This document shows, piece by piece, positions 2,324 to 19,996 of a DNA stretch of 20,785 nucleotides; position 1 is the stretch's first letter, and each line of letters begins with the position of its first letter. The stretch is from positions 1-20,785 of the IMG/VR virus record IMGVR_UViG_3300011113_000571; one strand, given 5' to 3'. The stretch comes from a virus. Under the pieces are notes generated by a model that had not been told where the DNA came from, did no database searches, and worked only from the letters and a program-made list of their open reading frames with translations. Position numbers and translations under genes: made by a program.

Positions 2324-2466
2324 TTAGTTCAGAAACACCATATAAATTAGCAGAAATAATTAGAGACACTTGGCCACAACTTTACAGAAAACCACAACCA
2401 TCTTATAATAGTCAAAAGACATTGAATAATGAACAAGAAAAAGATAACAGTATTAGGTGCTGGTAA
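2320..2466 (+). CDS. Small unknown protein (48 residues)
   Basis: The ORF begins with an ATGA overlap of the metallophosphoesterase stop and ends 38 bases inside the halogenase gene in another frame. The first 30 residues (YKLAEIIRDTW then PQLYRKPQPSYN) have a natural mix of charged, aromatic and proline residues. The start arrangement is typical of coupled phage genes. There is no clear Shine-Dalgarno, and the region also holds a good promoter for the halogenase, so its bases may serve both purposes. No family was recognised. Confidence 0.45.
   Translation: MISSETPYKLAEIIRDTWPQLYRKPQPSYNSQKTLNNEQEKDNSIRCW
2381..2409 (+). promoter_or_regulatory. Sigma70-type promoter for the halogenase gene
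   Basis: TTTACA (2381-2386), a 17-base spacer and a consensus TATAAT (2404-2409) precede the halogenase ATG by 19 bases. A start point near 2416 would leave a leader of only about 13 bases with no Shine-Dalgarno. The same hexamers and spacing recur at 3543 and 13944. Confidence 0.75.
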
Positions 2467-3559
2467 TGCTGGATGTATTACAGCACTTAGTTATGTTTGG
2501 TTCAATAAAAGATATGATGATGTAGATGTAGAAGTCGAATTGATTTATGATCCAAGTGTATCTTCTGAAGTTGTTGGGCAAGCAACATTAATCGATCATC
2601 CACATTTGTTGTGGAGAACAATCGGATTTGATTGGTATAATAATAATATTCACGCCACATTTAAGAGTGGTATTTTATATGAAGGATGGGGTAAAGAACA
2701 CGATAAGTGGTTTCATCCTTTCCCTGCAGGATCTATGGCAATGCATTACTGCCCTTGGGTAATGCAAAAGGCAGTTTTAGAATCAGGGCAATTCAAAGTT
2801 ATTGAAGATAACATTGAAGATTATGATAGTATTGATTCCGATTTTATCTTTGATTGTCGCGGAAAACCAAATGATTTCTCCGATTATGATGTTCTAGATC
2901 ATCCAGTAAACTCTGTAGTTCTAGGACAACCTAATTGGGATACCTCAAATGAATACTGGAGTCGCCATGTAGCAACTCCAGATGGGTGGACATTTGTAAT
3001 TCCAACTAGAGCATCTTCCCCATCCAATAATTATTGTGTTGGATATTGCTACAACAAAAATATCACAACAAAAGAAGAGGCAGAAAAAAACTTTTCTAAT
3101 ATGTTTGATGTGAATATAAAGAAGCACATTGAATTTAAAAATTACATTACAAAGAATCCTATTATTAATGATAGGGTTATCTTGAACGGTAATCGTTTGT
3201 TTTTTCTTGAACCATTAGAATCATCGTCATCACACACGTATCTGCAGTGGGCATTGATGACTCAAGACTATGTTATGGGACAAGATATCAATCCATCAAA
3301 TAAAATTTTGGAGTATATTAAACAGACCCATAACTTTATCTTATGGCATTATCAAGCAGGATCAAAATATGAAACTCCTTTTTGGGATTATGCAAAACAG
3401 TTTTCTTTTGAAGATTCTTATTTTGATGATGTTTTGAGATATGTAAATGAATATCCTGACAAGGTTCTACCAACTCTTACAGATCTCACATATTCTCAGT
3501 GGGGTGCTTACAGCGTAAAGAATTGGTCTGATGGAATGTCTCTTTACAGATCATTATAA
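2429..3559 (+). CDS. Tryptophan halogenase-like flavoprotein
   Basis: A 376-residue protein of the flavin-dependent tryptophan halogenase family, which uses FADH2, O2 and chloride or bromide to halogenate an aromatic substrate. The N-terminal GAGNAG dinucleotide-binding loop (residues 10-15) is present. ATFKSG contains a lysine at position 79, the same position and context as the catalytic lysine of PrnA and RebH. EPLESSSSH (from residue 261) matches the EPLEST segment near the active site. The WxWxIP signature is altered to WTFVIP (187-192), with Phe for the second Trp. At 376 residues it is clearly shorter than characterised enzymes (about 500-540). Such genes are known in cyanophages, but no substrate has been assigned that I know of. 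Its start rests on the ATG 19 bases after a sigma70-type promoter; no ribosome site is visible. Confidence 0.85.
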   Translation: MNKKKITVLGAGNAGCITALSYVWFNKRYDDVDVEVELIYDPSVSSEVVGQATLIDHPHLLWRTIGFDWYNNNIHATFKSGILYEGWGKEHDKWFHPFPAGSMAMHYCPWVMQKAVLESGQFKVIEDNIEDYDSIDSDFIFDCRGKPNDFSDYDVLDHPVNSVVLGQPNWDTSNEYWSRHVATPDGWTFVIPTRASSPSNNYCVGYCYNKNITTKEEAEKNFSNMFDVNIKKHIEFKNYITKNPIINDRVILNGNRLFFLEPLESSSSHTYLQWALMTQDYVMGQDINPSNKILEYIKQTHNFILWHYQAGSKYETPFWDYAKQFSFEDSYFDDVLRYVNEYPDKVLPTLTDLTYSQWGAYSVKNWSDGMSLYRSL

Positions 3560-4357: not shown

Positions 4358-5017
4358 ATGGAAAAGAATGATACAAATAGTTATGATAACTTACTTGCAA
4401 AGACAGATCTTAAAATTTTAAACTCTGACATTAGTGATGATTTCATTGGAGTTTTTGATACCAATTATGATGGTACAGAGTTAGTTCATCTATTTGAAAA
4501 TTTGAAGAAATCAAATATAGGATTTACTCGAAATTCAAAAACCTTAGATAAACCATCTTTGCATCTCGAAGATGATGTTATATGGATGGCCGTGAATCAT
4601 GAAAAAGAAGATTCCTTTAATATGTCATTATCAATGAGTGTGATGACTAAGTATAATGAATTAACTGCTTTATGCTATAACGAATATGCCAAAAAGTTTG
4701 GATATTTGCATCATGTTCGAGGGCATCAATATACTGTAAATCTTCAAAGAACTCAACCTGGGGAAGGATATCACGTTTGGCACTCTGAAGTTGAGGCTTT
4801 ACAATATACAACTCGTTACCTGGCAACTATGGTGTATTTAAATACTGTGATCGAAGGTGGTGAAACAGAATTTAAATATCAACATCGTAGAGTTCAACCA
4901 AAAAATGGCAGAGTAGTTATTTGGCCAGCGCAATGGACTCATACACATCGAGGAAATCCACCACTTAAAGGTAATAAGTATATTGCAACAAGTTGGATTC
5001 ACTATACAAGTATTTGA
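4358..5017 (+). CDS. 2-oxoglutarate/Fe(II)-dependent oxygenase, prolyl-4-hydroxylase type
   Basis: A 219-residue member of the P4H-like dioxygenases, which hydroxylate a side chain or small molecule using O2 and 2-oxoglutarate. The double-stranded beta-helix core spans about residues 120-215. The iron triad appears as His142-Ser-Glu144 (HxE in place of the usual HxD) and a distal histidine in WTHTHRG (His195 or His197). The 2-oxoglutarate-binding basic residue is probably Lys207 in GNKY. YLNTVIEGGETEF is the typical strand between the two metal motifs. Cyanophage genomes often carry several such enzymes of unknown substrate. It closes the small-gene cluster started at 3592. The next genes are structural and have their own late promoters. 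Confidence 0.85.
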   Translation: MEKNDTNSYDNLLAKTDLKILNSDISDDFIGVFDTNYDGTELVHLFENLKKSNIGFTRNSKTLDKPSLHLEDDVIWMAVNHEKEDSFNMSLSMSVMTKYNELTALCYNEYAKKFGYLHHVRGHQYTVNLQRTQPGEGYHVWHSEVEALQYTTRYLATMVYLNTVIEGGETEFKYQHRRVQPKNGRVVIWPAQWTHTHRGNPPLKGNKYIATSWIHYTSI

Positions 5018-9045: not shown

Positions 9046-9363
9046 ATGGCATCAGGAGTTCTAGGTCAAGTTTCGATTGCGGCAACTACAAATACAACAG
9101 TATATACAGTTCCGTCATCGAACTTAGCATACGCGAACGTTAATATTACAAACAGAAACACAACTAACGTTGCTGTTCGAGTTGCTATTACTACTGGTGC
9201 AGATCCAACAACTGCCCAGTACATTGAATATGATGTTGATGTGGCACCAAATGGTGTTCTTGAAAGAACTGGACTTGTTATGGAAGCAACTAGACGAGTA
9301 GTTGTTTATTCAGATACCGCCAACGTAAGTTGTAGCGTTTACGGTGTCGAGCAACCTGTATAA
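9046..9363 (+). CDS. Small beta-rich structural protein, single-domain
   Basis: A 105-residue protein with a GGAG ribosome site 8 bases upstream. The layout TNTTVYTVP, then ANVNITNRNT, then RVAITTGAD, then VLERTGLVMEATRRVVVYSD, then SCSVYGVE resembles each of the two repeats of the partial gene at 20058. These proteins therefore belong to one family of small beta-sandwich units. No enzyme motif is present. Placed between the large fibre and the Cys/Gly-rich proteins and behind a perfect late promoter, it is most likely a fibre- or capsid-decorating protein. Confidence 0.75.
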   Translation: MASGVLGQVSIAATTNTTVYTVPSSNLAYANVNITNRNTTNVAVRVAITTGADPTTAQYIEYDVDVAPNGVLERTGLVMEATRRVVVYSDTANVSCSVYGVEQPV

Positions 9364-9387: not shown

Positions 9388-9723
9388 ATGCCACGCACTA
9401 TCGCAGGACCAATCGCAACCAGTACACTAGTTGGTATTACTACTAACTATACTGCAAACCCAAATGAAACAATTCTTGCAGACACCACTGGTGGTCCAAT
9501 CACCGTTACAATTCCAGCATCAACTACTGCAATTGTAGGTACAAGAATTGCAATCATCGATCCAAACGGAAGATGGGGTCAATATAACTGCACAGTTGGA
9601 ACCACAACTTCAATTACCAGAATCGCTGGTCTAAATGAAACTCTGGTTATGAATATCCCTTACAGATCAATTGAACTTCTTTACACTGGGGCACAGTATG
9701 GTTGGGTCTTGACGAGATCTTGA
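9388..9723 (+). CDS. Small beta-rich structural protein, paralogous domain to gene at 5076
   Basis: A 111-residue protein with a good AAGGAG ribosome site (9371-9376). The segment ITVTIPASTTAIVGTRIAI followed by DPNGRWG and ending ELLYTGAQYGWVL aligns by eye with the C-terminal half of the 5076 protein (VNLILPSTALSVGDSIELAD, DPYYSWG, MWTGSHWGIV). The shared end (WTG/YTG, two residues, then WGxV) is a common fibre-domain ending in which aromatic residues may contact a ligand. The upstream fibre-attachment domain is missing here. The gene is cotranscribed with its neighbours and was probably separated from the fibre by domain duplication. Confidence 0.75.
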   Translation: MPRTIAGPIATSTLVGITTNYTANPNETILADTTGGPITVTIPASTTAIVGTRIAIIDPNGRWGQYNCTVGTTTSITRIAGLNETLVMNIPYRSIELLYTGAQYGWVLTRS

Positions 9724-9757: not shown

Positions 9758-10912
9758 ATGGCTAATTTAAGATCACTCATTGCATATGCTGACGATTCTA
9801 CTTTTAGATCTTTTGTTGGATTGACAACCAATTATGGTTCTCAATACCGTCAAATCAGAATGTATAATTTCTGTACTAATGATCCTAGCTGGGGTGCAAA
9901 CATTGGTAATTATGACTGGAGAGCTCCTCAGGGAACAAACTTTATTAAATTTGAAATTTGGGGAGGTGGAGGATCTGGTGCAAATAGTTGTTGTTGTATG
10001 TTTGGATATCCTGGTGGTGCTGGGGCATATGCATTTAGAACTTTATGTGCTAAAGATTTAGGTGATCTAAGTGGTTGTCCGTTTGAAATTTGTATTGGAC
10101 ACGGTGCTTGTTGTATTGCAACTGGTAGTGCTCCAACAGTTGGATATTATGGATGTAAAAGTTATGTTACTGGTGTAGGACTTTGCAACTTTTGTGCCGA
10201 AGGTGGATCACCAGGAATCGGATTCTGTGCTCTAAGTTTTATGTGCTGTTTCTGTTACAATGGACAGGGTGAAGCGGCAAATAATGGTGGTTCATATGAT
10301 ATAGCGAGGAGGGGTGAAAATTTATGTGGACCACATCCCGCGAACTGTGGGCATTCTTGCTTTACTCCTGGCGGCGGTATTGGACTGTTTTGGCGTTCAC
10401 AAGAAATGGGTAAACTGAGAGGAAACCCATATTGTGATATGTTTGGTAATGCAAGAAGATTTGATACCTGTGGAAATGCAGTTCAACTAGGACACGCAAC
10501 TAATCATTGTTATGGTGCAATGTACTTTGGTACTCTAAGTTGCGCTTCATATTATGGTGCAGATGGTGGAGCATTTGGACTTCCTGGTGCTCTTGGATCA
10601 CCTTGCAACCAAGATGCTGCTAACTGGTGTATGGTTGTTCAGCACCATCCTTTCCCAGGAGGATTGATCAATACAAGAGGTGGATATCAAGCTAGAAGAA
10701 TTGAAATGAACTATGCTGGTGAAAACTCTCAAGCTGCCTTTATGACTGCTGCAATGGGATTTTGGGGTGGTGCAAATGATGGTGCTTTTGCTCCTCCTGG
10801 AACTGGTGGATCAACTGCTGCATCTACTGGTGGCAACTGTTACTGTGGTGGTCCTGGATATGCTGGGATGGTACAAATCACCTATGGTGGTTCTGGACAA
10901 GGATATGTTTGA
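9758..10912 (+). CDS. Cysteine- and glycine-rich structural protein, paralogue 1 of 3
   Basis: A 384-residue protein with 27 cysteines (about 7%) and very high glycine, preceded by AGGGAAGAGG. It starts MANLRSL, like its two neighbours. From residue 65 comes FEIWGGGGSGANSCCC then PGGAGAY, next GCKSYVTGVGLCNFCAEGG, a GADGGAFGLPGALG segment, PGGLINTRGGYQ, and a closing CYCGGPGYAGMVQITY. These blocks recur in order in the next two genes. Runs of glycine broken by small and aromatic residues recall glycine-rich adhesins. The cysteines come singly, as pairs and as a triplet, rather than in a regular zinc-finger spacing. No signal peptide or membrane span is seen. Probably a receptor-contacting tail protein, but this is inference. 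Confidence 0.8.
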   Translation: MANLRSLIAYADDSTFRSFVGLTTNYGSQYRQIRMYNFCTNDPSWGANIGNYDWRAPQGTNFIKFEIWGGGGSGANSCCCMFGYPGGAGAYAFRTLCAKDLGDLSGCPFEICIGHGACCIATGSAPTVGYYGCKSYVTGVGLCNFCAEGGSPGIGFCALSFMCCFCYNGQGEAANNGGSYDIARRGENLCGPHPANCGHSCFTPGGGIGLFWRSQEMGKLRGNPYCDMFGNARRFDTCGNAVQLGHATNHCYGAMYFGTLSCASYYGADGGAFGLPGALGSPCNQDAANWCMVVQHHPFPGGLINTRGGYQARRIEMNYAGENSQAAFMTAAMGFWGGANDGAFAPPGTGGSTAASTGGNCYCGGPGYAGMVQITYGGSGQGYV

Positions 10913-10934
10913 TGCACTTAAGAGGTAAAAAACA

Positions 10935-11927
10935 ATGGCAGATTTAAGAAGACTACTTAACACAGAAAACGCTGATTACCTTGCAAGGCAAGCGAGAGCT
11001 GGTTATATTAATCCAACCACAAATACTGATGCTCCCGAATCTACAACGTGGGGTACTGGATGGGGTCCTATCCTTGAAGATGGATATACTCAATATTTTG
11101 TTGGAATGTGTAATAACTCTAACTGTGACACATCCAACTGGGCCTATTGTGGTGGATGGTGTGCGCCTCCTGGAGTAACTCAGATCACCTTTGAGATCTG
11201 GGGTGGCGGTGGATCAGGTGCAGGTGCCTGCTGCTGCCAGCAAGGATCTCCTGGTGGTGCTGGTGCATATGGACGTAGAACTCTTTGCGCCTGTGATTTC
11301 CCAGGTAATTCACTTGGAGGTTTCTGCTATCTTTGGTTCCTTGCTCCTCCAACTTGCTGTTCTGCCTGTTGTGTAGGTCTAAGAGGATGTAAGACTTACA
11401 TCACAGGATGTGGTCTATCTAACTTCTGTGCTGATGGTGGTCTTCCTGGTAAAACTTGCTGCTTTGTATATTATTCTGGTGGAGTAAGTCCAACATATGG
11501 CCCTGGATGCACACACTTTGCTAACCAATCGGGTGCTGGTTTAGGTGGACCTGGATGTTATACATTCCCACCTGATGGATTTACTGCTTGTGATTGTGCT
11601 TGTGCTTATGGTACAGATTATGCAATTGGTGGAAAACTAGGTTGGTTCCGTGTTGATTGTGCTTGTGGTGATACTTGTTGGGTAAAACTTGGTATTCCTC
11701 AACCTGGTGGTGTTCGTGACCAATGTACTCGTTACTTCATTACCAAAAACTGGGGTAATGCTTGCATTAATGATTGGGCTCATTGTGCAACAGGTGAATG
11801 GCCAACAAATACTTGCTGTGGTTGGTCAATGCACGGACAAGGATCTCCATCAGCAACATCTTGTGGTGGACCATGCTGTTTTGGTTGGCGTGGGACAAGA
11901 GGATTAATCCGTATTCACTATAAATAA
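10935..11927 (+). CDS. Cysteine- and glycine-rich structural protein, paralogue 2 of 3
   Basis: A 330-residue protein with 35 cysteines (about 10.6%), the most cysteine-dense of the trio. It begins MADLRRLL. From residue 86 it shows FEIWGGGGSGAGACCC, then PGGAGAYGRRTLCAC, GCKTYITGCGLSNFCADGG and a closing CGGPCCFGWRGTRGLIRIHY. A central portion differs from its neighbours and has clusters CDCAC and DCACGDTC. DNA around the FEIWGG block is nearly identical to that of paralogue 3, suggesting recent duplication or gene conversion. It has an AAGAGG ribosome site and a 22-base gap from paralogue 1. Its last codons contain a perfect late promoter for the next gene. Confidence 0.8.
   Translation: MADLRRLLNTENADYLARQARAGYINPTTNTDAPESTTWGTGWGPILEDGYTQYFVGMCNNSNCDTSNWAYCGGWCAPPGVTQITFEIWGGGGSGAGACCCQQGSPGGAGAYGRRTLCACDFPGNSLGGFCYLWFLAPPTCCSACCVGLRGCKTYITGCGLSNFCADGGLPGKTCCFVYYSGGVSPTYGPGCTHFANQSGAGLGGPGCYTFPPDGFTACDCACAYGTDYAIGGKLGWFRVDCACGDTCWVKLGIPQPGGVRDQCTRYFITKNWGNACINDWAHCATGEWPTNTCCGWSMHGQGSPSATSCGGPCCFGWRGTRGLIRIHYK
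11919..11926 (+). promoter_or_regulatory. Late promoter, perfect TATAAATA, inside a gene end
   Basis: TATAAATA spans the final Tyr-Lys-stop codons of paralogue 2 and lies 23 bases before the paralogue 3 start. The start point would fall close to the AAGGA ribosome site at 11933, so the leader would be very short. Confidence 0.55.
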
Positions 11928-11949
11928 TTTCTAAGGACGTAGAAACAAC

Positions 11950-12903
11950 ATGGCTATTTTAAGGAGTCTTTTAGGAACTAGAGATATTAATGTTTCTGGA
12001 ATTTATTCTGGAGGTATTGGTAGACTTAGACCTGGACAAACGACTTATTTTTATGTTCACGATTGTGGATCTTGTAACGACTATGCCTCAGGATATAATT
12101 CTCAGTTCTATTGCTGCTGGAGAGTTCCTGGTTCACCAACAGGTACTGGGACGACTGTAGTTACCTTTGAGATCTGGGGTGGAGGCGGCGGCGGCGCAGG
12201 CGCTTGTTGTTGTATGCTTGGTGTTCCTGGTGGTGCTGGAGCATATGCACGTAAAACAGTAACAGGTGTTGCATCAGGAACTGCATATGATATTTGCATA
12301 GGATCAATTGGATGTAGATGTCCCGAAGTTGTAGGAATGCGTGGATGTAAATCTTATGTTACGGGATCTGGTCTTTCTAATTTCTGTGCCGATGGTGGAT
12401 GGCCTGGATGTTCATTCTGCCATTATTGCCATGATTCTAGATTTTATCACTTTAAAACAGCAATGGGTGGCACTTGTGCTGGTTGTTGTCAAGGTGTTTT
12501 TGGTGGATGCTACGATATTGTTGGATTCTCAACTTTCTCTAACTTCTGTGTAGGATGTTGCGCCCAATATTTTGGTGCTGATTATGGTGCTCCTGGACTT
12601 CCTGGTGCTTTAGGAATTTACGCTTGGGGTGGATGTAGATGTAAGAATAAGTACTATATCCCATATCCTGGTGGATTAGTTAATGAGCAAGGTGGATATG
12701 TTTCAGTTGCAATGTCTTGTGATGTAACTTGCGGTTTCCGTGAACAATGTTGTGCTGCTGGTTTAGTTGGATTTGGTGGTGGAAATGCCTATAATTATGT
12801 TCCTGGTTTTGGCGGAGTTTCTGCTGCAGTTTGTGGTGGACCTTGCTGCTGCGGTACTCAAGGGTGGGCAGGAGCGGCTAGGATAACCGTACAATGGGTC
12901 TGA
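11950..12903 (+). CDS. Cysteine- and glycine-rich structural protein, paralogue 3 of 3
   Basis: A 317-residue protein with 32 cysteines (about 10%). It starts MAILRSLLGT. From residue 73 it shows FEIWGGGGGGAGACCC, then GVPGGAGAYARKTV, GCKSYVTGSGLSNFCADGG, GADYGAPGLPGALG, PGGLVNEQGGY and a closing CGGPCCCGTQGWAGAARITV. The order of blocks matches paralogue 1 better than paralogue 2, including the GLPGALG and PGGL segments. No catalytic motif is visible. The number and grouping of cysteines point to metal binding or to disulfide cross-links formed after release into the oxidising sea. It ends 4 bases before another late promoter match. Confidence 0.8.
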   Translation: MAILRSLLGTRDINVSGIYSGGIGRLRPGQTTYFYVHDCGSCNDYASGYNSQFYCCWRVPGSPTGTGTTVVTFEIWGGGGGGAGACCCMLGVPGGAGAYARKTVTGVASGTAYDICIGSIGCRCPEVVGMRGCKSYVTGSGLSNFCADGGWPGCSFCHYCHDSRFYHFKTAMGGTCAGCCQGVFGGCYDIVGFSTFSNFCVGCCAQYFGADYGAPGLPGALGIYAWGGCRCKNKYYIPYPGGLVNEQGGYVSVAMSCDVTCGFREQCCAAGLVGFGGGNAYNYVPGFGGVSAAVCGGPCCCGTQGWAGAARITVQWV

Positions 12904-12941: not shown

Positions 12942-13904
12942 ATGGCTAAAATTCGTAAAGCATTTAGATATGATTTACCCGATGAGTATCTCTCTCAGGA
13001 GAGAAAACTTGGTTTGCAAGCAGAATGGACCTATGAAGGACCAGATAAAATTTGGGTTTTTGTAGATTACAAGACAAATAAAATTCTTGCAAGAGAGTCA
13101 TTCAGAGAATATGATTATGAAAATCCAGAAAAACAATATGAGGATTTAGAAGTTTATACTGGATTCAATTCATATCCTGTATTAATTACTTTTGAAGATG
13201 ATCCTTTGCTTCTTTCTGCAGTAGCACAACTTACACCTTTAGCATCAGATCTTCCACAAAAAGAATATAGACTACCTGGATCTGATGAAGTTTTTTATAG
13301 CAGACCAAATCCAACTACTCCAGATCACACGATTGAAGTTGCAGATTGTGAATATGATCCCGATAAAAAAGAATGGATAAAACCATATCCATGGAAAATT
13401 CCTCATATTCTTAAAGATGAATTTTTATTTGGACATTCTTCAGTTGTAGCAGATGCTGAAACTGTTAAAGCAGATGCAAAAAAAGGAGTTTATGAGTGGG
13501 ATGAAGAGAAATTTTCTAAGTGGGATGCATATATTAAAGAACTAAAAGATGCTCCAGTAAAATATGCTGATTATCTAGATACTCCTTGGATGATTCCATT
13601 TCCTATTGACCCAAGAACTTCTCCAGATTGGTCTAATTTTGTTGATGCAGATCCAGAATCTGGTGATATTTTACCACCAGATCCAGAACCAAAATTTATT
13701 GATCCATCACTTGAAGGAACTGTAATTAAAGAACACGATCCTAATGAAACCGATGAAGAATCAGGTAGACTTCCTGGTCTACCTGATTGGACAAAAGTAG
13801 AAGAACCAACCGCACCATTAGAAGGATATAATCCTAATGCTAGAGATGGTGATGGAGATGGAATTGTTCAAGAAGGAACTCCTTTTGAACGACCTGCATC
13901 ATAA
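12942..13904 (+). CDS. Acidic structural protein with C-terminal DGDGDG calcium-loop-like motif
   Basis: A 320-residue protein, strongly acidic and rich in Pro, Asp, Glu, Tyr and Trp, with one cysteine. This contrasts sharply with the Cys-rich genes just upstream. The N-terminus (MAKIRKAFRYDLPDEY) is followed by a probable globular part to about residue 220, then a proline- and aspartate-rich segment. The end, YNPNARDGDGDGIVQEGTPF, is a motif seen at the termini of several phage structural proteins and resembles a DxDxDG calcium-binding loop. The AGGAG ribosome site is 12 bases from the ATG. It is the last gene before a terminator, so it closes the late structural block. Likely a fibre or fibre-associated protein. 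Confidence 0.75.
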   Translation: MAKIRKAFRYDLPDEYLSQERKLGLQAEWTYEGPDKIWVFVDYKTNKILARESFREYDYENPEKQYEDLEVYTGFNSYPVLITFEDDPLLLSAVAQLTPLASDLPQKEYRLPGSDEVFYSRPNPTTPDHTIEVADCEYDPDKKEWIKPYPWKIPHILKDEFLFGHSSVVADAETVKADAKKGVYEWDEEKFSKWDAYIKELKDAPVKYADYLDTPWMIPFPIDPRTSPDWSNFVDADPESGDILPPDPEPKFIDPSLEGTVIKEHDPNETDEESGRLPGLPDWTKVEEPTAPLEGYNPNARDGDGDGIVQEGTPFERPAS

Positions 13905-13995: not shown

Positions 13996-15174
13996 ATGAG
14001 ATCGACTGCGTTTTTCGTAAACGGCGGAGCTGGGCGTGTAATTTGCTCTATCCCAGCATTTGAAAAATATCAAGAAGAAAATCCTGATGATGATTTTATC
14101 ATTGTTTGTGAAGGAGGTACAGATTTTTTTAAAGGACATGCAAGTCTGTATCCTAGAGTATATGATAACTGGCATAAGAATCTTTTTAGGGAAAAGATTC
14201 AAGAAAGAAATATTGTAACAACGGAACCATATCGTATCTGGGAATATTACAACCAGAAATGTAATCTTTCCCAAGCATTTGATATTCAGATTAATAATAA
14301 AGGTATCAGAGAACTTCCTCGCCCAACTCTAAAGTTCTCTCGCCAAGAAATCATTCAAGCAAAGTTTGTAGTAGAAGAAGTTCGCCAAAAAACCAAGAGA
14401 AATAAACTTGTTGTCTTCCAACCATTTGGGCGCGGCGCTCAAATGATGGGAAATTTCATTACTGATTCTGGTGGAAGAAGTTTTGAACTTGGTAATGTTG
14501 TTTCTCTTGTAAAGAGACTCCAGAAAAAAGGTTATGGAGTTATCTTTATGAGTGAGTTTTCAATCGACTTTGTAAAAGAAGGATGTACCGAACCTGTTGC
14601 TGCTCCTATGGGAATTGACCTAAGGCAGTGGGCAGCAATTATTGCTGAGACAGATCTTTTCTTTGGATGTGATTCTGTTGGACAACATATTGCTTATGCT
14701 AAAGAAGTTCCTGCAGTAGTTGTTGTTGGTTCTACCTGTAAAGAAAATATCAGTTATCCTAACTATGAAAAGTTTGAAGTTCTTGATATGGGAGAAGGAC
14801 TGAGAATTTATGATCCCATCCGAATTGCCATGGATGAAGTTACACATCGTATCAATGATGGTATTATGGCAATGAATGATAAAATTGAAGATGTGATTAT
14901 CGATTCTATTGAAAAGATGATGAAAAAATATTACGTCAAGAAAAATGAAGTAGTTGTTCTTCCCAATCAAGATTGTGGTACAGAAGAATGTGGAGTTCCA
15001 CCACAGCAAAATACTCAAGCACCTAGAATGATCGGAGCATCAGAATCTGCTCCAACGATCAATTCTATGCTAGAATCTTCTAAGAAAAAAACTGCCATTG
15101 ATGAACTGATTCAATCGTCAAAGAATGGTAGTTCTAAAAAACCAACTGGATTTGTTGACACTGTTAAAAAGTAA
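13996..15174 (+). CDS. Family-9-like glycosyltransferase (heptosyltransferase-like)
   Basis: A 392-residue GT-B-type transferase. The N-terminal NGGAGRVICSIPAFEKYQEE corresponds to the GDxxxxxPAL loop of heptosyltransferases. QPFGRGAQM (about residue 138) starts the second Rossmann domain. CDSVGQHIAYAKEVPAVVVV (Asp226, Ser227, His231) is the donor-binding D(S/T)GxxHlAaAlxxPvv motif of GT9. After about residue 310 comes a low-complexity Lys/Ser/Gln-rich tail of about 80 residues not found in typical members. A GAGG ribosome site lies 5 bases before the ATG. As it leads an operon with ADP-heptose genes, it is a good candidate for the transferase that uses that sugar, but donor and acceptor cannot be read from sequence. 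Confidence 0.8.
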   Translation: MRSTAFFVNGGAGRVICSIPAFEKYQEENPDDDFIIVCEGGTDFFKGHASLYPRVYDNWHKNLFREKIQERNIVTTEPYRIWEYYNQKCNLSQAFDIQINNKGIRELPRPTLKFSRQEIIQAKFVVEEVRQKTKRNKLVVFQPFGRGAQMMGNFITDSGGRSFELGNVVSLVKRLQKKGYGVIFMSEFSIDFVKEGCTEPVAAPMGIDLRQWAAIIAETDLFFGCDSVGQHIAYAKEVPAVVVVGSTCKENISYPNYEKFEVLDMGEGLRIYDPIRIAMDEVTHRINDGIMAMNDKIEDVIIDSIEKMMKKYYVKKNEVVVLPNQDCGTEECGVPPQQNTQAPRMIGASESAPTINSMLESSKKKTAIDELIQSSKNGSSKKPTGFVDTVKK

Positions 15175-15187
15175 TTAAGGATTTTAT

Positions 15188-16870
15188 ATGACGACTATTC
15201 TTTCTTGTGCTCGTGGTCACAATGCAAGTACCACTTTGATGGTTGATGGTGAGATTGTTTTTTATCTAGAAGAAGAAAGACTTTCTAGATTTAAATATGA
15301 TGGTGCTCCATTAATGGGTCTCATTAAAGCATTTGAGTATGTGGATGAGATTGATCACCTAGTAATTTGTCACACTCATCGCCATGGACCTGTTCTTGAT
15401 TGGTGTGGTGATGATGCTTATCAAGGTCTAGTCCGCAAGATTGCACGTAAGCGATTTGAGTTTGAAACGCATTTCATTGATACAATTCATCATCAAATGC
15501 ACGCTGCTTGTGGTTTTTATAATTCTGGATTTGAAACTGCCGCTTGTGTAATTGCTGATGGTGCTGGAAGTTTCCTTCAGTTTGAAGGTGTTCAAGATAC
15601 CTTCTATGAATTTGAATCAATTTTTAAAGCATCTTATCCTCATGAATTTGAGGTTGTGTACAAGCATATTGGTACTAAAGCGGCAATCGGTATGATTGAA
15701 ACACAACCAGGAGTGTTTGCAACAGAATATCCTGGTTTGACAAAGATGTATGAGGCAGTGACCGAGTATTGTGGTTTCCCTGCTATTGAAGCTGGTAAAC
15801 TGATGGGTCTTGCTCCTTATGGAAAATCAAATGAAGAGATTCCTCCATTTTTTAGCAATGGTTGGGGAAATCGTGAACTAATTATTCCAACTTATCCTAA
15901 CGCTGCTAAGATCAATGTTGGTCGTTATCCAATTCTTGCAGAAGATGTTAAGAATCATCAGAAGGATGAGTATACTGATGTTCAAAAGGATATGGCATAT
16001 GCAATTCAGGAAGCAACTGAGAATCGGATGATCGAACTGATTCGCAGGGCTCATGAAGAAACTGGAGAAACAAATATTGTTGTCTGTGGTGGATATGGTC
16101 TGAACTGTGTTGCCAACTATAAGTATTGGCAAGCATTCCCTGATCTGAATATCTACTGTGAACCTATTTCTCACGATGGTGGAACTTCGATTGGTGGAGC
16201 ACAGTTTATGTGGCACCAGATTAGTGAGAATACTGAACCTAGAAAGCAAGCATCTGTTTATTATGGTCCTCAGTATTACATTGATTCTTATGAGGATGAT
16301 CTAGAAGGTCTTGATGTTACCGATACTTCTTACGATGAAGTTGCAAAATTGATTCGTGATGGTAATATCGTAACGATGTTCCAAGGTCGTTCTGAAGGTG
16401 GTCCTCGTGCTCTTGGTAACCGTTCAATTCTGTTTGATCCAACGATTAAGGATGGTAAAGATATTGTGAATGCTGTGAAGCGTCGTGAGTGGTTCCGTCC
16501 CTTTGCTTGTTCAATCAAACAAGACCAAGTTAATGATTGGTTTGATCTCGCTGGACGTGAAGAAACTCCTCATATGATGTATGCTGTGAAGTGTCTTCCT
16601 GGAGTTGAAGAAAAGATTCCTTCAGTGATTCACGTTGATGGAACTTGCCGTATTCAAACAGTAACTCCAGAGCAGAATGAGCATTACTATAAACTGATTG
16701 ATGCTTTTGAGAAACTGAGTGAAGTTCCTATTCTCTTTAATACCAGTTTCAATCTTGGTGGAGATCCTTTGGTTGAAACTATTGAGGATGCTGTTCTGAC
16801 TCTTCGTAAGAGTGATATTGAATATATGTATCTTCCTGAAATTCAAAAACTAGTATACGTTCCTAATTGA
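15188..16870 (+). CDS. O-carbamoyltransferase (NodU/CmcH/TobZ family)
   Basis: A 560-residue full-length enzyme that activates carbamoyl phosphate with ATP and transfers the carbamoyl group to a hydroxyl, usually of a sugar. The Kae1-like N-terminal domain starts ARGHNAS (His11) with EEERLSRFKYDGAP, has the metal-binding HHQMHAACGFYNSGF, ADGAGS, GLAPYGK, and CGGYGLNCVAN with ISHDGGTSIGGA. The YrdC-like C-terminal domain has FQGRSEGGPRALGNRSILFD, REWFRPFACSI and FNTSFNLGGDPLVETIEDA. All characteristic motifs look intact. An AAGGA ribosome site precedes the ATG. It lies 13 bases after the glycosyltransferase and 3 bases before the cytidylyltransferase, so the acceptor is probably the same glycan. 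Such genes are known in cyanophages. Confidence 0.92.
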   Translation: MTTILSCARGHNASTTLMVDGEIVFYLEEERLSRFKYDGAPLMGLIKAFEYVDEIDHLVICHTHRHGPVLDWCGDDAYQGLVRKIARKRFEFETHFIDTIHHQMHAACGFYNSGFETAACVIADGAGSFLQFEGVQDTFYEFESIFKASYPHEFEVVYKHIGTKAAIGMIETQPGVFATEYPGLTKMYEAVTEYCGFPAIEAGKLMGLAPYGKSNEEIPPFFSNGWGNRELIIPTYPNAAKINVGRYPILAEDVKNHQKDEYTDVQKDMAYAIQEATENRMIELIRRAHEETGETNIVVCGGYGLNCVANYKYWQAFPDLNIYCEPISHDGGTSIGGAQFMWHQISENTEPRKQASVYYGPQYYIDSYEDDLEGLDVTDTSYDEVAKLIRDGNIVTMFQGRSEGGPRALGNRSILFDPTIKDGKDIVNAVKRREWFRPFACSIKQDQVNDWFDLAGREETPHMMYAVKCLPGVEEKIPSVIHVDGTCRIQTVTPEQNEHYYKLIDAFEKLSEVPILFNTSFNLGGDPLVETIEDAVLTLRKSDIEYMYLPEIQKLVYVPN

Positions 16871-16873
16871 CAT

Positions 16874-17281
16874 ATGGAGAATAAAAAGAAGATCTTTGTA
16901 AATGGCACTTTCGACCTTTTACACGTTGGGCATCTCCAACTTCTTAATCACGCTAGAGGGTTAGGTGATTTTCTAACAGTTGCAATTGATAATGATGAAA
17001 GAGTTGCTGAGAAGAAAGGTTTGGATCGACCTATTCTTCCAGCAAAAGAAAGACTCTTTCATTTAATGAATTTACGAGCAGTTGATGAAGGTTATATTTT
17101 TGACTCTGATGAAGCACTCGAATTGATTGTAAGTAAAGTAAAACCTGATATAATGGTAGTTGGTTCTGATTGGAGGGGTAAAGAAATTGTTGGATCAAAT
17201 TATGCTGGAGAAGTTCAATTCTTTGACCGACTCCCAGAGTGGTCAACCACTGAACTTATACAACGTATTGCTAATCGGTGA
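16874..17281 (+). CDS. rfaE2: ADP-heptose synthase, nucleotidyltransferase part (RfaE domain II type)
   Basis: A 135-residue HIGH-type nucleotidyltransferase. NGTFDLLHVGHLQLLNHARG carries the HxGH motif. AIDNDERVAEKKGLDRPILP, DIMVVGSDWRGKEIVGS and a closing EWSTTELIQRI match the RfaE domain II pattern (STTxxI at the end). This part adds AMP to heptose 1-phosphate to give ADP-D-glycero-beta-D-manno-heptose. In E. coli it is the C-terminal half of bifunctional HldE; here it is a separate gene placed before the kinase. No Shine-Dalgarno is visible, and the ATG is 3 bases from the previous stop, implying coupled translation. A glycerol-3-phosphate cytidylyltransferase is a less likely alternative because of the ADP-heptose neighbours. 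Confidence 0.87.
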   Translation: MENKKKIFVNGTFDLLHVGHLQLLNHARGLGDFLTVAIDNDERVAEKKGLDRPILPAKERLFHLMNLRAVDEGYIFDSDEALELIVSKVKPDIMVVGSDWRGKEIVGSNYAGEVQFFDRLPEWSTTELIQRIANR

Positions 17282-17993
17282 TAGTTGCACCGATGAATAC
17301 GTTTATGGAACCTGCACAAAGTTAAATCCTGAATCTCCTGTTCCCATCTTAAGTTTCAAACATAAGGAAACTAAGATGGGAATGTCTGGTAATGTGCTTG
17401 AGAACCTTAAAGCATTTGATATTAATGTAACTCACATTACAAATCGAGAAAAAATAATCAAGACAAGATATGTTGATGAGAGATATAATCATCAACTTCT
17501 TCGAGTTGATGAGGATATTCGTGTTGAAACTTTTTTAGGTTTTCTACCAGAGCAGAACTTTGATGCAGTTGTGATCTCTGATTATGCGAAAGGATTTCTA
17601 ACAATTGATAAGATCTACGAGATTGTAGAAACTTATAGTTGCCCTATTTTTATTGATAGTAAGAAAGTTCATCTTCCTGATGAAGAACACGTCTTCATTA
17701 AGATCAATGAATTGGAAGCTCAGCGATTAAGAACTCGCCCTAAAAATCTAATTATAACAATGGGTGAGAAAGGAACCTTTTACAAAGATACAATTTATCA
17801 GGCAAATAAAGTCAATGTATTTGATGTTGTTGGAGCAGGAGATACCTTTCTTGCTGCTTTGACTTATTTTCATTTGGAATCAAATAGTATTGAGAGTGCT
17901 ATTATTAAAGCAAATCGAGCAGCAGCAATTGCTGTCCAGCATCGGGGAACTTATGTATTAACTAAGGAGGATATTAATGAAATACGTGGTTGA
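17268..17993 (+). CDS. rfaE1: ADP-heptose synthase, kinase part (RfaE domain I type, PfkB family)
   Basis: A compact sugar kinase of about 241 residues predicted to phosphorylate D-glycero-D-manno-heptose 7-phosphate at C1. LIGDSCTDEYVYGTCTKLNP with PESPVPIL matches the HldE kinase start, GMSGNVLENLKAFD the GGAANVAxNL motif, and DVVGAGDTFLAAL the PfkB ATP/active-site signature. There is no ATG near the expected N-terminus. The best start is TTG at 17268, overlapping the upstream gene by 14 bases in the +1 frame; a TTG at 17160 would add 36 residues with no similarity to the family. At 241 residues it is shorter than the roughly 318-residue E. coli domain. Its end overlaps the HAD gene by 17 bases. 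A 15-bp imperfect hairpin lies in the coding region at 17341-17382. Confidence 0.8.
   Translation: MLIGDSCTDEYVYGTCTKLNPESPVPILSFKHKETKMGMSGNVLENLKAFDINVTHITNREKIIKTRYVDERYNHQLLRVDEDIRVETFLGFLPEQNFDAVVISDYAKGFLTIDKIYEIVETYSCPIFIDSKKVHLPDEEHVFIKINELEAQRLRTRPKNLIITMGEKGTFYKDTIYQANKVNVFDVVGAGDTFLAALTYFHLESNSIESAIIKANRAAAIAVQHRGTYVLTKEDINEIRG
17341..17382 (+). repeat. Imperfect inverted repeat inside the kinase gene
   Basis: TTCCCATCTTAAGTTT (17341-17356) pairs with AAACTAAGATGGGAA (17368-17382) as 15 base pairs with one bulged base around an 11-base loop. It lies about 75 bases into the kinase coding sequence and has no T tract after it. Confidence 0.6.
17964..17970 (+). promoter_or_regulatory. 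Consensus Shine-Dalgarno of the HAD gene
   Basis: AAGGAGG lies 6 bases before the ATG at 17977 and inside the kinase coding region. It is the strongest ribosome site in the sugar module and fixes the HAD start. Confidence 0.85.
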
Positions 17994-18300
17994 TATTGAC
18001 GGTACAATTTGTACAAATGGTGATTGCTCTGCCTGTAAATATGAAGGTAGTGTTCCTCTCCCCGATCGAATTGCAAAGATCAATAAACTTTATGATGAAG
18101 GACACATCATCTGGTACTTTACTGCACGAGGAATGAGTCAAGATCCTCCTCCATCTGAAGCAACAAAAAAGTGGTATAATCTAACTAAGATGCAACTTGA
18201 TATCTGGGGATGCAAGTATCATCATCTGATGATGGGAAAACCATCGGCAGATTATTACATTGACGATAAAGCAATTCAATCCGATGATTTTTTTATTTGA
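17977..18300 (+). CDS. Small HAD-family hydrolase
   Basis: A 107-residue minimal HAD phosphatase. Motif I is VDIDGTIC (nucleophile Asp6, Asp8), motif II is the threonine in YFTARG, and motif III/IV is MGKPSADYYIDDKA with the lysine and two aspartates. It lacks a large cap domain. In the ADP-heptose pathway GmhB removes the 7-phosphate from heptose 1,7-bisphosphate; GmhB is larger (about 190 residues), but position between the kinase and the later genes makes this small HAD a possible substitute. Four cysteines in the motif I loop (CTNGDCSACK region) could bind a metal. It overlaps the kinase by 17 bases and the next gene by 17 bases. Confidence 0.82.
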   Translation: MKYVVDIDGTICTNGDCSACKYEGSVPLPDRIAKINKLYDEGHIIWYFTARGMSQDPPPSEATKKWYNLTKMQLDIWGCKYHHLMMGKPSADYYIDDKAIQSDDFFI

Positions 18301-18877
18301 TAAACAAGACGAAAATCTAACTTGGATAACTGAATCGATTAAAAGATTAGATTTATTGTCTATTTCCAAATTGGAATTTTATGTCGAGAACAATCAAGAT
18401 CAACTTCTAGATGCAAAGATAGTAGATCCTAGAGGTAATGATGGAAGTTTAGACGTTAGAAGTTCTCGTATTCTATGGATTTCTGATGAGAAAAAATTTA
18501 ATTATCTGTATGAGGAAATGGCAGACATCATTAATAATGTTAATGATCATTGCTATAATTATTCTTTGTATGGATTTGAATGCTTTCAATATAGTGAATA
18601 CCACGCATCAGAAAATGGTCATTATACTTGGCACATTGATACATCAGTTCGTGGTGGTCAAAAACACGTCAGGAAATTATCGTTCAGTGCTGGATTGAAT
18701 GATAATTATGAGGGTGGTGAATTAGAATTTCGAATGGGTCCGAACACCGTCCAATACAAATTGAAAAAAGGACAGGTTATCGTGTTCCCATCTTTTATAC
18801 TACATAGAGTAGCACCAGTGACAAAAGGTGTTCGCAAAACATTAGTTGGGTGGAGTCGAGGACCTAATTTTGTATGA
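18284..18877 (+). CDS. 2-oxoglutarate/Fe(II)-dependent oxygenase (PKHD-type)
   Basis: A 197-residue dioxygenase counted from the ATG at 18284; a TTG at 18260 would add eight residues but is less likely. The iron triad is His117-x-Asp119 (YTWHIDTS) and His174 (FPSFILHRV); Arg184 (KGVRKTLVGWSRGP) would bind 2-oxoglutarate. KLSFSAGLNDNYEGGELEF is the characteristic strand pair between them. The motif set matches PKHD-type hydroxylases such as PiuC/YbiX. It overlaps the HAD gene by 17 bases and the cupin by an ATGA, so it is made with the sugar enzymes. It may hydroxylate a sugar intermediate or a host or phage protein. It is only distantly similar to the oxygenase at 4358. Confidence 0.85.
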   Translation: MIFLFDKQDENLTWITESIKRLDLLSISKLEFYVENNQDQLLDAKIVDPRGNDGSLDVRSSRILWISDEKKFNYLYEEMADIINNVNDHCYNYSLYGFECFQYSEYHASENGHYTWHIDTSVRGGQKHVRKLSFSAGLNDNYEGGELEFRMGPNTVQYKLKKGQVIVFPSFILHRVAPVTKGVRKTLVGWSRGPNFV

Positions 18878-19236
18878 CTGATATTAAACTCGTTCCCAAA
18901 GGATGGGGATATGAAAAGTGGATTGTCAATACCGAAGAGTATTGTGGAAAACTTCTGCACTTTGTAAAGGGTGGTAGATGCTCTTATCATTATCATAAAT
19001 TAAAGGATGAAACTTTCTATATCCAATCAGGAAAGATTCGTCTTTATTATGGAACTAATGATGATTATGACAACGCAAATCATCTCACCTTAGTAAAGGG
19101 TGATAAGTTTCACGTTCCAAGAGGTTTAAGACATCAAATGGTCGCGCTTGAAGATACGGAGATGTTTGAATTCTCCACGCAACACTTTGATGAAGATAGT
19201 TATCGGATTATACCTGGAGATACTCTTCAACTGTGA
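18874..19236 (+). CDS. Cupin protein, sugar-isomerase-like
   Basis: A 120-residue single-domain cupin. The first motif GGRCSYHYHKLKDETFYIQS gives His39, His41 and Glu46, and the second, GDKFHVPRGLRHQM, gives His87; together these are the metal ligands. The start VPKGWGYEKWIVNTEEYCGK resembles the C-terminal cupin of mannose-6-phosphate isomerase/GDP-mannose pyrophosphorylase (type II) and related sugar isomerases. It could interconvert a sugar phosphate feeding the module; no SIS-domain GmhA isomerase is present in the window. It begins at an ATGA overlap with the oxygenase, and its 3' end overlaps the convergent HldD-like gene by 29 bases. Confidence 0.8.
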   Translation: MTDIKLVPKGWGYEKWIVNTEEYCGKLLHFVKGGRCSYHYHKLKDETFYIQSGKIRLYYGTNDDYDNANHLTLVKGDKFHVPRGLRHQMVALEDTEMFEFSTQHFDEDSYRIIPGDTLQL

Positions 19237-19996
19237 TGAAAGGATAGTTCTCAATCCAATTCATATTTGCACGGGTATAATCTTGATATTTGCCAACCAA
19301 ATGCTCAGGGAAGGGGATGTAACGTATATCTCCTCCCTCTTTTTGTGCAACACACTCTGCAACGTGTTGGAACGACACAGGCGATCCTGTGCCTATATCA
19401 TAGATCCCACTAGGTTGATTATTTTTTAAAACAAGATCAACAACATCATTTACACACACAAAATCTCTATAGAACTTATCTGATCCTTCGAAGAGTTCGA
19501 GATATCCTTTTTCTTTAATTTGTTTGGTAAATTTACTGACTGGACTTGCTTGATCTCCCTTTTGATCCTCTCCTTTTCCATAGACATTGAAATATCTAAA
19601 ACCTTGTATTGAGTTAAATCTGTCAATGTTATCGAGAACAAAATAATCGATTTGAAGTTTTGATATTGCGTAGTAATTGAGGGGATTGATACATCCAACA
19701 GTGTTACCATAAACTGATGCCGAAGATGCATATTTAACGGGAATTTGATATTCAATTGCTTTCTCAAATAATTTAATTGAGAAGTCAACATTGTACTTAT
19801 GTATTTTATTAATATCTTTCTCTACTGTGCTAGAAATTGCACCTTGATGAATAATGAGTTCTACCTTATCCCAATCTTTATAATCATTGAGAAATGGATA
19901 TGCACCATCTCCTTCTACTCTGTAAACATTTTCAAGATCTAGGTTGTTGCAAAAGTGTTGCCCAATAAAACCTTTATATCCAGTAAGAATGATCAT
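19208..19996 (-). CDS. hldD: ADP-L-glycero-D-manno-heptose 6-epimerase-like (HldD)
   Basis: A 262-residue NAD(P)-dependent short-chain sugar epimerase. GYKGFIG (6-12) is the nucleotide loop. IIHQGAISSTVEKD parallels the E. coli HldD segment IFHEGACSSTTEWD, and SSASVYG, Tyr109-xxx-Lys113 and RYFNVYGKGEDQKGDQASP (134-152) are close to HldD. Lys146 lies where HldD has its second catalytic lysine. The enzyme would convert ADP-D-glycero- to ADP-L-glycero-D-manno-heptose. It is about 50 residues shorter than E. coli HldD (310). It is the only minus-strand gene in the window and is convergent with the cupin gene. An AGGAG ribosome site lies 4 bases before its ATG. Confidence 0.9.
   Translation of the reverse strand: MIILTGYKGFIGQHFCNNLDLENVYRVEGDGAYPFLNDYKDWDKVELIIHQGAISSTVEKDINKIHKYNVDFSIKLFEKAIEYQIPVKYASSASVYGNTVGCINPLNYYAISKLQIDYFVLDNIDRFNSIQGFRYFNVYGKGEDQKGDQASPVSKFTKQIKEKGYLELFEGSDKFYRDFVCVNDVVDLVLKNNQPSGIYDIGTGSPVSFQHVAECVAQKEGGDIRYIPFPEHLVGKYQDYTRANMNWIENYPFITVEEYLQV

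Follow-up and report, generated by a model that had tools for sequence, protein, structure and literature searches.

The closest described counterpart of the genes analysed here is the tail fibre of cyanophage Pam3 (7YPX, 7YFW), in which gp24 is present in the virion as a homotrimer and has a helical domain at the N-terminus, a TNF-like domain and a domain rich in glycine whose distal tips vary; its authors proposed that the glycine-rich domain binds the receptor, and also pointed out its similarity to ALK (PMC9608196). A separate gene adjoining the fibre gene encodes the Pam3 assembly chaperone, gp25. In Salmonella phage S16 a separate adhesin, gp38 (6F45), stands at the end of the long fibre and has a beta-helix middle and a sandwich of more than 50% glycine (PMC6851490); mycobacteriophage Bxb1 carries polyglycine 'brush' proteins at its tail tip (9D93), and Syn9 has glycine-rich proteins, gp36, gp38 and gp39, that follow its fibre genes. 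For most marine T4-like cyanophages the proteins that bind the receptor have yet to be assigned, and the open-access subset of the literature yielded no description of cysteine-/glycine-rich tail proteins in cyanophages or pelagiphages.

We analysed a 20,785-nucleotide stretch of viral DNA (the whole of IMG/VR record IMGVR_UViG_3300011113_000571 from position 1 to 20,785; the window) that carries three adjacent cysteine- and glycine-rich genes, here called A, B and C. The window comes from a marine T4-like cyanophage: the psbD/psbA genes at its left end match those of Synechococcus phages, and beyond them lie tail genes, then the trio and then a cluster for sugar modification (Table 1). The best reading of the trio is a cysteine-rich variant of a known adhesin fold, and we consider it likely that the three proteins are paralogous receptor-binding tips of the cyanophage tail fibre, assembled with the help of a chaperone and stabilised by cysteines in their loops.

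Table 1. Features of the window, with positions, strand and supporting match where available
Feature	Position	Strand	Basis
Tryptophan halogenase-like	2429-3559		PF04820 3e-24
2OG-Fe(II) oxygenase, first of two	4358-5017		PF13640
Tail fibre protein, 999 aa	5992..8991	+	phrog_9851 tail fiber 6e-256
Small conserved protein between fibre and trio	9046..9363	+	phrog_11338 tail fiber 1e-10
Second small protein, fibre-trio interval	9388..9723	+	phrog_9648 tail protein 7e-6
Cys/Gly-rich protein A, 384 aa, 27 C, putative TNF-like/glycine-rich adhesin	9758..10912	+	phrog_4205 1e-47
Cys/Gly-rich protein B, 330 aa, 35 C	10935..11927	+	phrog_4205 5e-56; own ortholog clade
Cys/Gly-rich protein C, 317 aa, 32 C, structure modelled	11950..12903	+	phrog_4205 1e-57
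C86-C87-C88 of C, after GGGGGG run, first glycine-rich loop	12205..12213	+	predicted secondary structure
C299-C300-C301 of C, last glycine-rich loop before final strand	12844..12852	+
Putative tail-fibre assembly chaperone, trio partner (gene 12942)	12942..13904	+	family co-occurrence; PF16778 in relatives
Carbamoyltransferase	15188-16870		PF16861/PF02543
Cytidylyltransferase-like	16874-17281
PfkB kinase	17202-17993
2OG-Fe(II) oxygenase, second of two	18284-18877		PF13640
Cupin	18874-19236
Epimerase	19208-19996	minus

The three cysteine-rich genes have exactly the coordinates, lengths and cysteine counts given in the original prediction. Cysteine makes up 7-11% of the trio and is encoded by TGT as well as TGC codons; relative to the 1.27% cysteine of the 20 other genes in the window, the binomial P of the excess is 2e-12 for A, 2e-21 for B and 5e-19 for C. 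The neighbours are indeed poor in cysteine, with one residue each in the products of genes 12942 and 9046 and 7 in the 999 residues of the fibre protein. A, B and C are homologous, and the blocks originally read in them are real: the MAxLRxL N-terminus (MANLRSL, MADLRRL and MAILRSL, respectively) and FEIWGGGG followed by CCC occur in all three, while the GCKSYVTG and NFCADGG blocks are shared with small variations, B reading GCKTYITG and A reading NFCAEGG. The C-terminal CGGP block held for B and C, but in A the string aligns a few residues downstream, so that the CGGP label does not denote one homologous block, although all three proteins terminate in the same Gly/Cys loop and final strand. 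Of the trio only A exceeds the gathering cut-off (24.3) of PF21722 Gly_rich_2, with 27.8 bits, B falling below it at 16.1 and C giving no match to it in the Pfam search; 41 of 94 relatives match the family at E<=0.001.

An AlphaFold (AF2) model of C, predicted as a monomer from a 94-sequence alignment, has a pLDDT of 78, with 154 of 317 residues at or above 90 and low confidence at the N-terminus, including a short helix at residues 2-7, and at residues 172-199. In structural comparison, residues 28-317 of this predicted monomer align with residues 77-277 of 7YPX (Z 17.5, rmsd 3.0, 195 residues), and the Pam3 fibre in 7YFW scores Z 17.0, the two alignments spanning 193-195 residues. The top two PDB matches in Foldseek have E values of 4e-5 to 7e-5 and modest TM-scores of 0.43 and 0.52. 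The Bxb1 tail tip (Z 14.0) and the glycine-rich domain of ALK/LTK (Z about 8) come next, and every other PDB match listed has Z <=4.0; PDB searches by sequence and by profile, using A and the family, returned no match. Among viral predicted structures, those resembling C include uncharacterised proteins of S-CAM3 and P-SSM2 and many glycine-rich phage proteins. The predicted structure of C is thus of the Pam3 gp24 kind, a TNF-like sandwich extended into glycine-rich loops. The Pam3 fibre has a GGGGxGG motif in its central loops L1 and L6; in A, B and C the first glycine-rich loop reads GGGGxGA or GGGGGGA, and the last loop has a Cys/Gly sequence such as CGGPCCCG in its place. By sequence order and predicted secondary structure, the CCC-bearing first and last loops of C would correspond to the central loops of Pam3.

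The likeness to Pam3 gp24 lies in the predicted TNF-like and glycine-rich core, the GGGG-rich first loop, the variable loops and the presence nearby of a separate gene for a known or, here, putative assembly chaperone. The differences are that loci of the present type usually have two or three paralogs, that the N-terminal helix predicted here is far shorter than the long helical bundle on which the Pam3 homotrimer is built, and that the trio is rich in cysteine, a residue absent from the main text of the Pam3 paper (PMC9608196). The original prediction had drawn an analogy with T-even gp38. S16 gp38 resembles the trio as a separate adhesin with a glycine-rich lattice and variable loops, and in its fibre-end location if the trio proteins are also placed there, but Pam3 gp24, with its TNF-like and glycine-rich domains, is the better analogue and replaces it; 6F45 is not among the structural matches listed for C, an absence that carries no weight. 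Bxb1 shares the fold match and a tail-tip location with the proposed role of the trio, but its hosts differ, and the part of its description available to us mentions no cysteine-rich tandem set. Syn9 gp38 matches the trio family profile at 2e-7, and gp36, gp38 and gp39 follow fibre genes in a virus of the same family; they differ from the trio in having 0.8-2.5% cysteine, with 22-35% glycine.

A tblastn search of annotated phages with C matched S-CAM1, S-CAM3 and one single-cell marine virus, and A and B each recovered the same isolates. The Synechococcus phages S-CAM1 and S-CAM3 carry the trio in the order found in the window, and their arrangement of fibre, trio and carbamoyltransferase genes is identical to the window's. 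More broadly, a fibre gene is followed by trio-type genes, with small genes intervening, in the window, S-CAM1, S-CAM3, P-SSM2 and S-SSM7; the slot holds two such genes in P-SSM2 and three in S-SSM7, and all of these copies in the four cultured phages are annotated 'hypothetical protein'. The small protein directly after the fibre gene in the window is 96-97% identical to those of the closest loci, and the fibre protein itself is the likely carrier of the trio tips. In Pelagibacter phage Mosig, a protein with 23% glycine and 0.8% cysteine directly follows a related fibre gene. The same slot in single-cell virus AG-345-P14 (locus L094, 5117-5965) holds a protein with 26 C in 282 aa to which the family profile gives no match. 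The fold match and the chaperone partner described below make the copies of S-CAM1, S-CAM3, S-SSM7 and P-SSM2 adhesin candidates in cultured phages.

A profile-derived scan of viral contigs found relatives in at least about 80 uncultured viral loci. At least 203 distinct members have 6.0-12.6% cysteine (median 9.2) and 12-29% glycine, and none of the 203 distinct matches listed has less than 3% cysteine, a range to be read with the possibility that the scan, since matched cysteines add much to the score, is biased towards relatives rich in cysteine. Searches of bacterial genomes and of plasmids found no relatives; a cellular origin or a cargo role for the trio is unsupported. A search for proteomic records placing the trio proteins in virions returned none.

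The product of gene 12942 belongs to a family found beside the copies in 63 of the 65 interior loci among the matches listed. PF16778 Phage_tail_APC is matched by 38 of 65 members of this family, and the S-SSM7 relative scores 38.4 bits against a threshold of 26.6; the 12942 protein itself has no Pfam match, PF16778 included. The family consensus includes WxxYRxxLRDLP...FPxxP. In the model of the 12942 protein (pLDDT 84) a predicted N-terminal region rich in beta structure is joined by a helical hairpin, which is the modular plan described for Pam3 gp25; a PDB fold search with it gave no clear match, and over its helical part the profile matches 2KZ6, the solved structure of an uncharacterised protein, at 4e-6. 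The C-terminus of the protein (13830-13904) reads DGDGDGIVQEGTPFERPAS and resembles a calcium-binding loop; among 11 aligned relatives this ending is confined to those of the two nearest loci, L003 and L004.

Copy number varies around a prevalent three. The 65 interior loci among the matches listed have three copies in 44 cases, two in 16, one in 4 and four in 1, and their gene orders include copy-copy-copy-chaperone (28), copy-chaperone-copy-copy-chaperone (12), copy-chaperone-copy (7), copy-chaperone-copy-chaperone (6) and copy-chaperone (4). In a tree of 24 sequences from 8 loci, grouping is mostly by gene position, giving A, B and C lineages, with some weak forks; in a tree of 106 sequences B and C stay distinct lineages, and where A falls with respect to the first copies of S-CAM1 and S-CAM3 is not firm. 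The recurrent three-copy sets hint at a three-part tip. An A:B:C heterotrimer, or some other hetero-oligomer of an obligatory kind, that makes up one cysteine-locked tip would accord with the 1:1:1 co-inheritance of the genes in fixed order, the dominance of three-copy sets, the suggestion from the tree that triplication took place separately several times, the single chaperone gene that often serves three copies and the common N-terminal MAxLRxL. We regard it as rather unlikely, given that Pam3 gp24 is a homotrimer, that one copy with one chaperone can evidently suffice in some phages, and that chaperone genes are interleaved with copies in many of the orders above; single-copy loci and interleaved chaperones mean that a three-part tip is not obligatory. 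Tentatively, and on balance doubtfully, the set could represent a widespread class of marine phage adhesin in which two to three co-inherited paralogs, with separate duplications in several lineages, build a receptor-binding tip whose glycine-rich loop lattice is held by conserved cysteines through disulfides or metal, possibly as a heterotrimer. Two loci (L029, 935-6864; L022, 2314-6927) carry at least four Cys/Gly-rich copies in tandem with a chaperone-like gene after them, which suggests larger adhesin arrays.

The trio evolves faster than most, though not all, of the flanking genes. Against the two nearest loci, with dS comparable across genes, dN is 0.24-0.25 for A, 0.12-0.13 for B, 0.16 for C and 0.16 for the chaperone gene, compared with 0.08 for the fibre, 0.03 for the carbamoyltransferase and 0.04-0.05 for gene 13996; a small HAD-like gene (17977) likewise evolves fast, at 0.14. 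Relaxed constraint may be a partial cause of the raised dN in the trio. Together with the fold of the C model, the proximity of the fibre gene and the chaperone-like neighbour, the elevated dN supports the receptor-binding reading originally proposed, which was probably right about the class of role. That the trio proteins are instead shaft, baseplate or decoration proteins, whose glycine-rich fold is structural and binds no receptor, is quite improbable: proteins with glycine-rich domains are widespread in viruses, giant viruses included, but C has its closest solved relatives in a fibre for host recognition and a protein of the tail tip, and the trio evolves fast, with divergence greatest in the loops.

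Cysteine is retained amid this divergence. In the trio 92% of cysteines and 90% of glycines are kept against 71% of other residues, and in more distant loci the values are 79%, 76% and 43%, indicating that the cysteines behave as structural positions in an otherwise divergent protein; their conservation shows that they matter. Among 94 relatives (weighted), the columns of C86-C88 hold cysteine in 79-93% and that of C299 in 88%, with 54-59% at 300 and 301. The same 94 relatives have even cysteine counts in 50 cases and odd counts in 44, a near-equality that argues against complete intrachain pairing and leaves interchain disulfides, metal and free thiols. Some pairs of cysteine columns tend to be present or absent in the same relatives (87 with 157, phi 0.50; 58 with 112, phi 0.81), a co-occurrence confounded by shared ancestry, and parity and co-occurrence across these relatives give no decisive pattern of pairing. 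Were the cysteines to ligate a metal, such as iron or zinc, in place of forming disulfides, the tip would be a metalloprotein; the CC and CCC runs and the lack of a parity preference fit this, but the Pfam search matched no known metal-site family, and the co-occurring columns, subject to the same confounding, would also fit disulfides, so we give this possibility about one chance in four. The conserved excess raises the question of how tips are stabilised in oxic seawater and of metal in tail tips.

If the trio proteins are receptor-binding tips, each would combine a beta sandwich of TNF-like type with bundled glycine-rich loops and would probably dock on the fibre through its short MAxLRxL helix. 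The product of gene 12942 would probably fold or trimerise the tips and then leave, in the manner of Pam3 gp25. Many of the conserved cysteines lie in these loops, and their most likely role is to hold the lattice of loops together, either with bound metal or with disulfides arising after lysis in oxic seawater. The distal loop tips would touch the host surface, as in Pam3 gp24, and the residues between the cysteines would diverge with the receptor.

A sugar cluster (13996-19996) follows the adhesin module, and a similar sugar set adjoins the fibre module in S-CAM1, S-CAM3 and P-SSM2, a hint that receptor binding may be connected with the modification of surface sugars. The two 2OG-Fe(II) oxygenase genes flank a stretch that takes in the fibre gene, the adhesin genes and most of the sugar cluster, and the window's tryptophan halogenase-like gene has counterparts in Syn9, where two annotated tryptophan halogenases lie near fibre genes.
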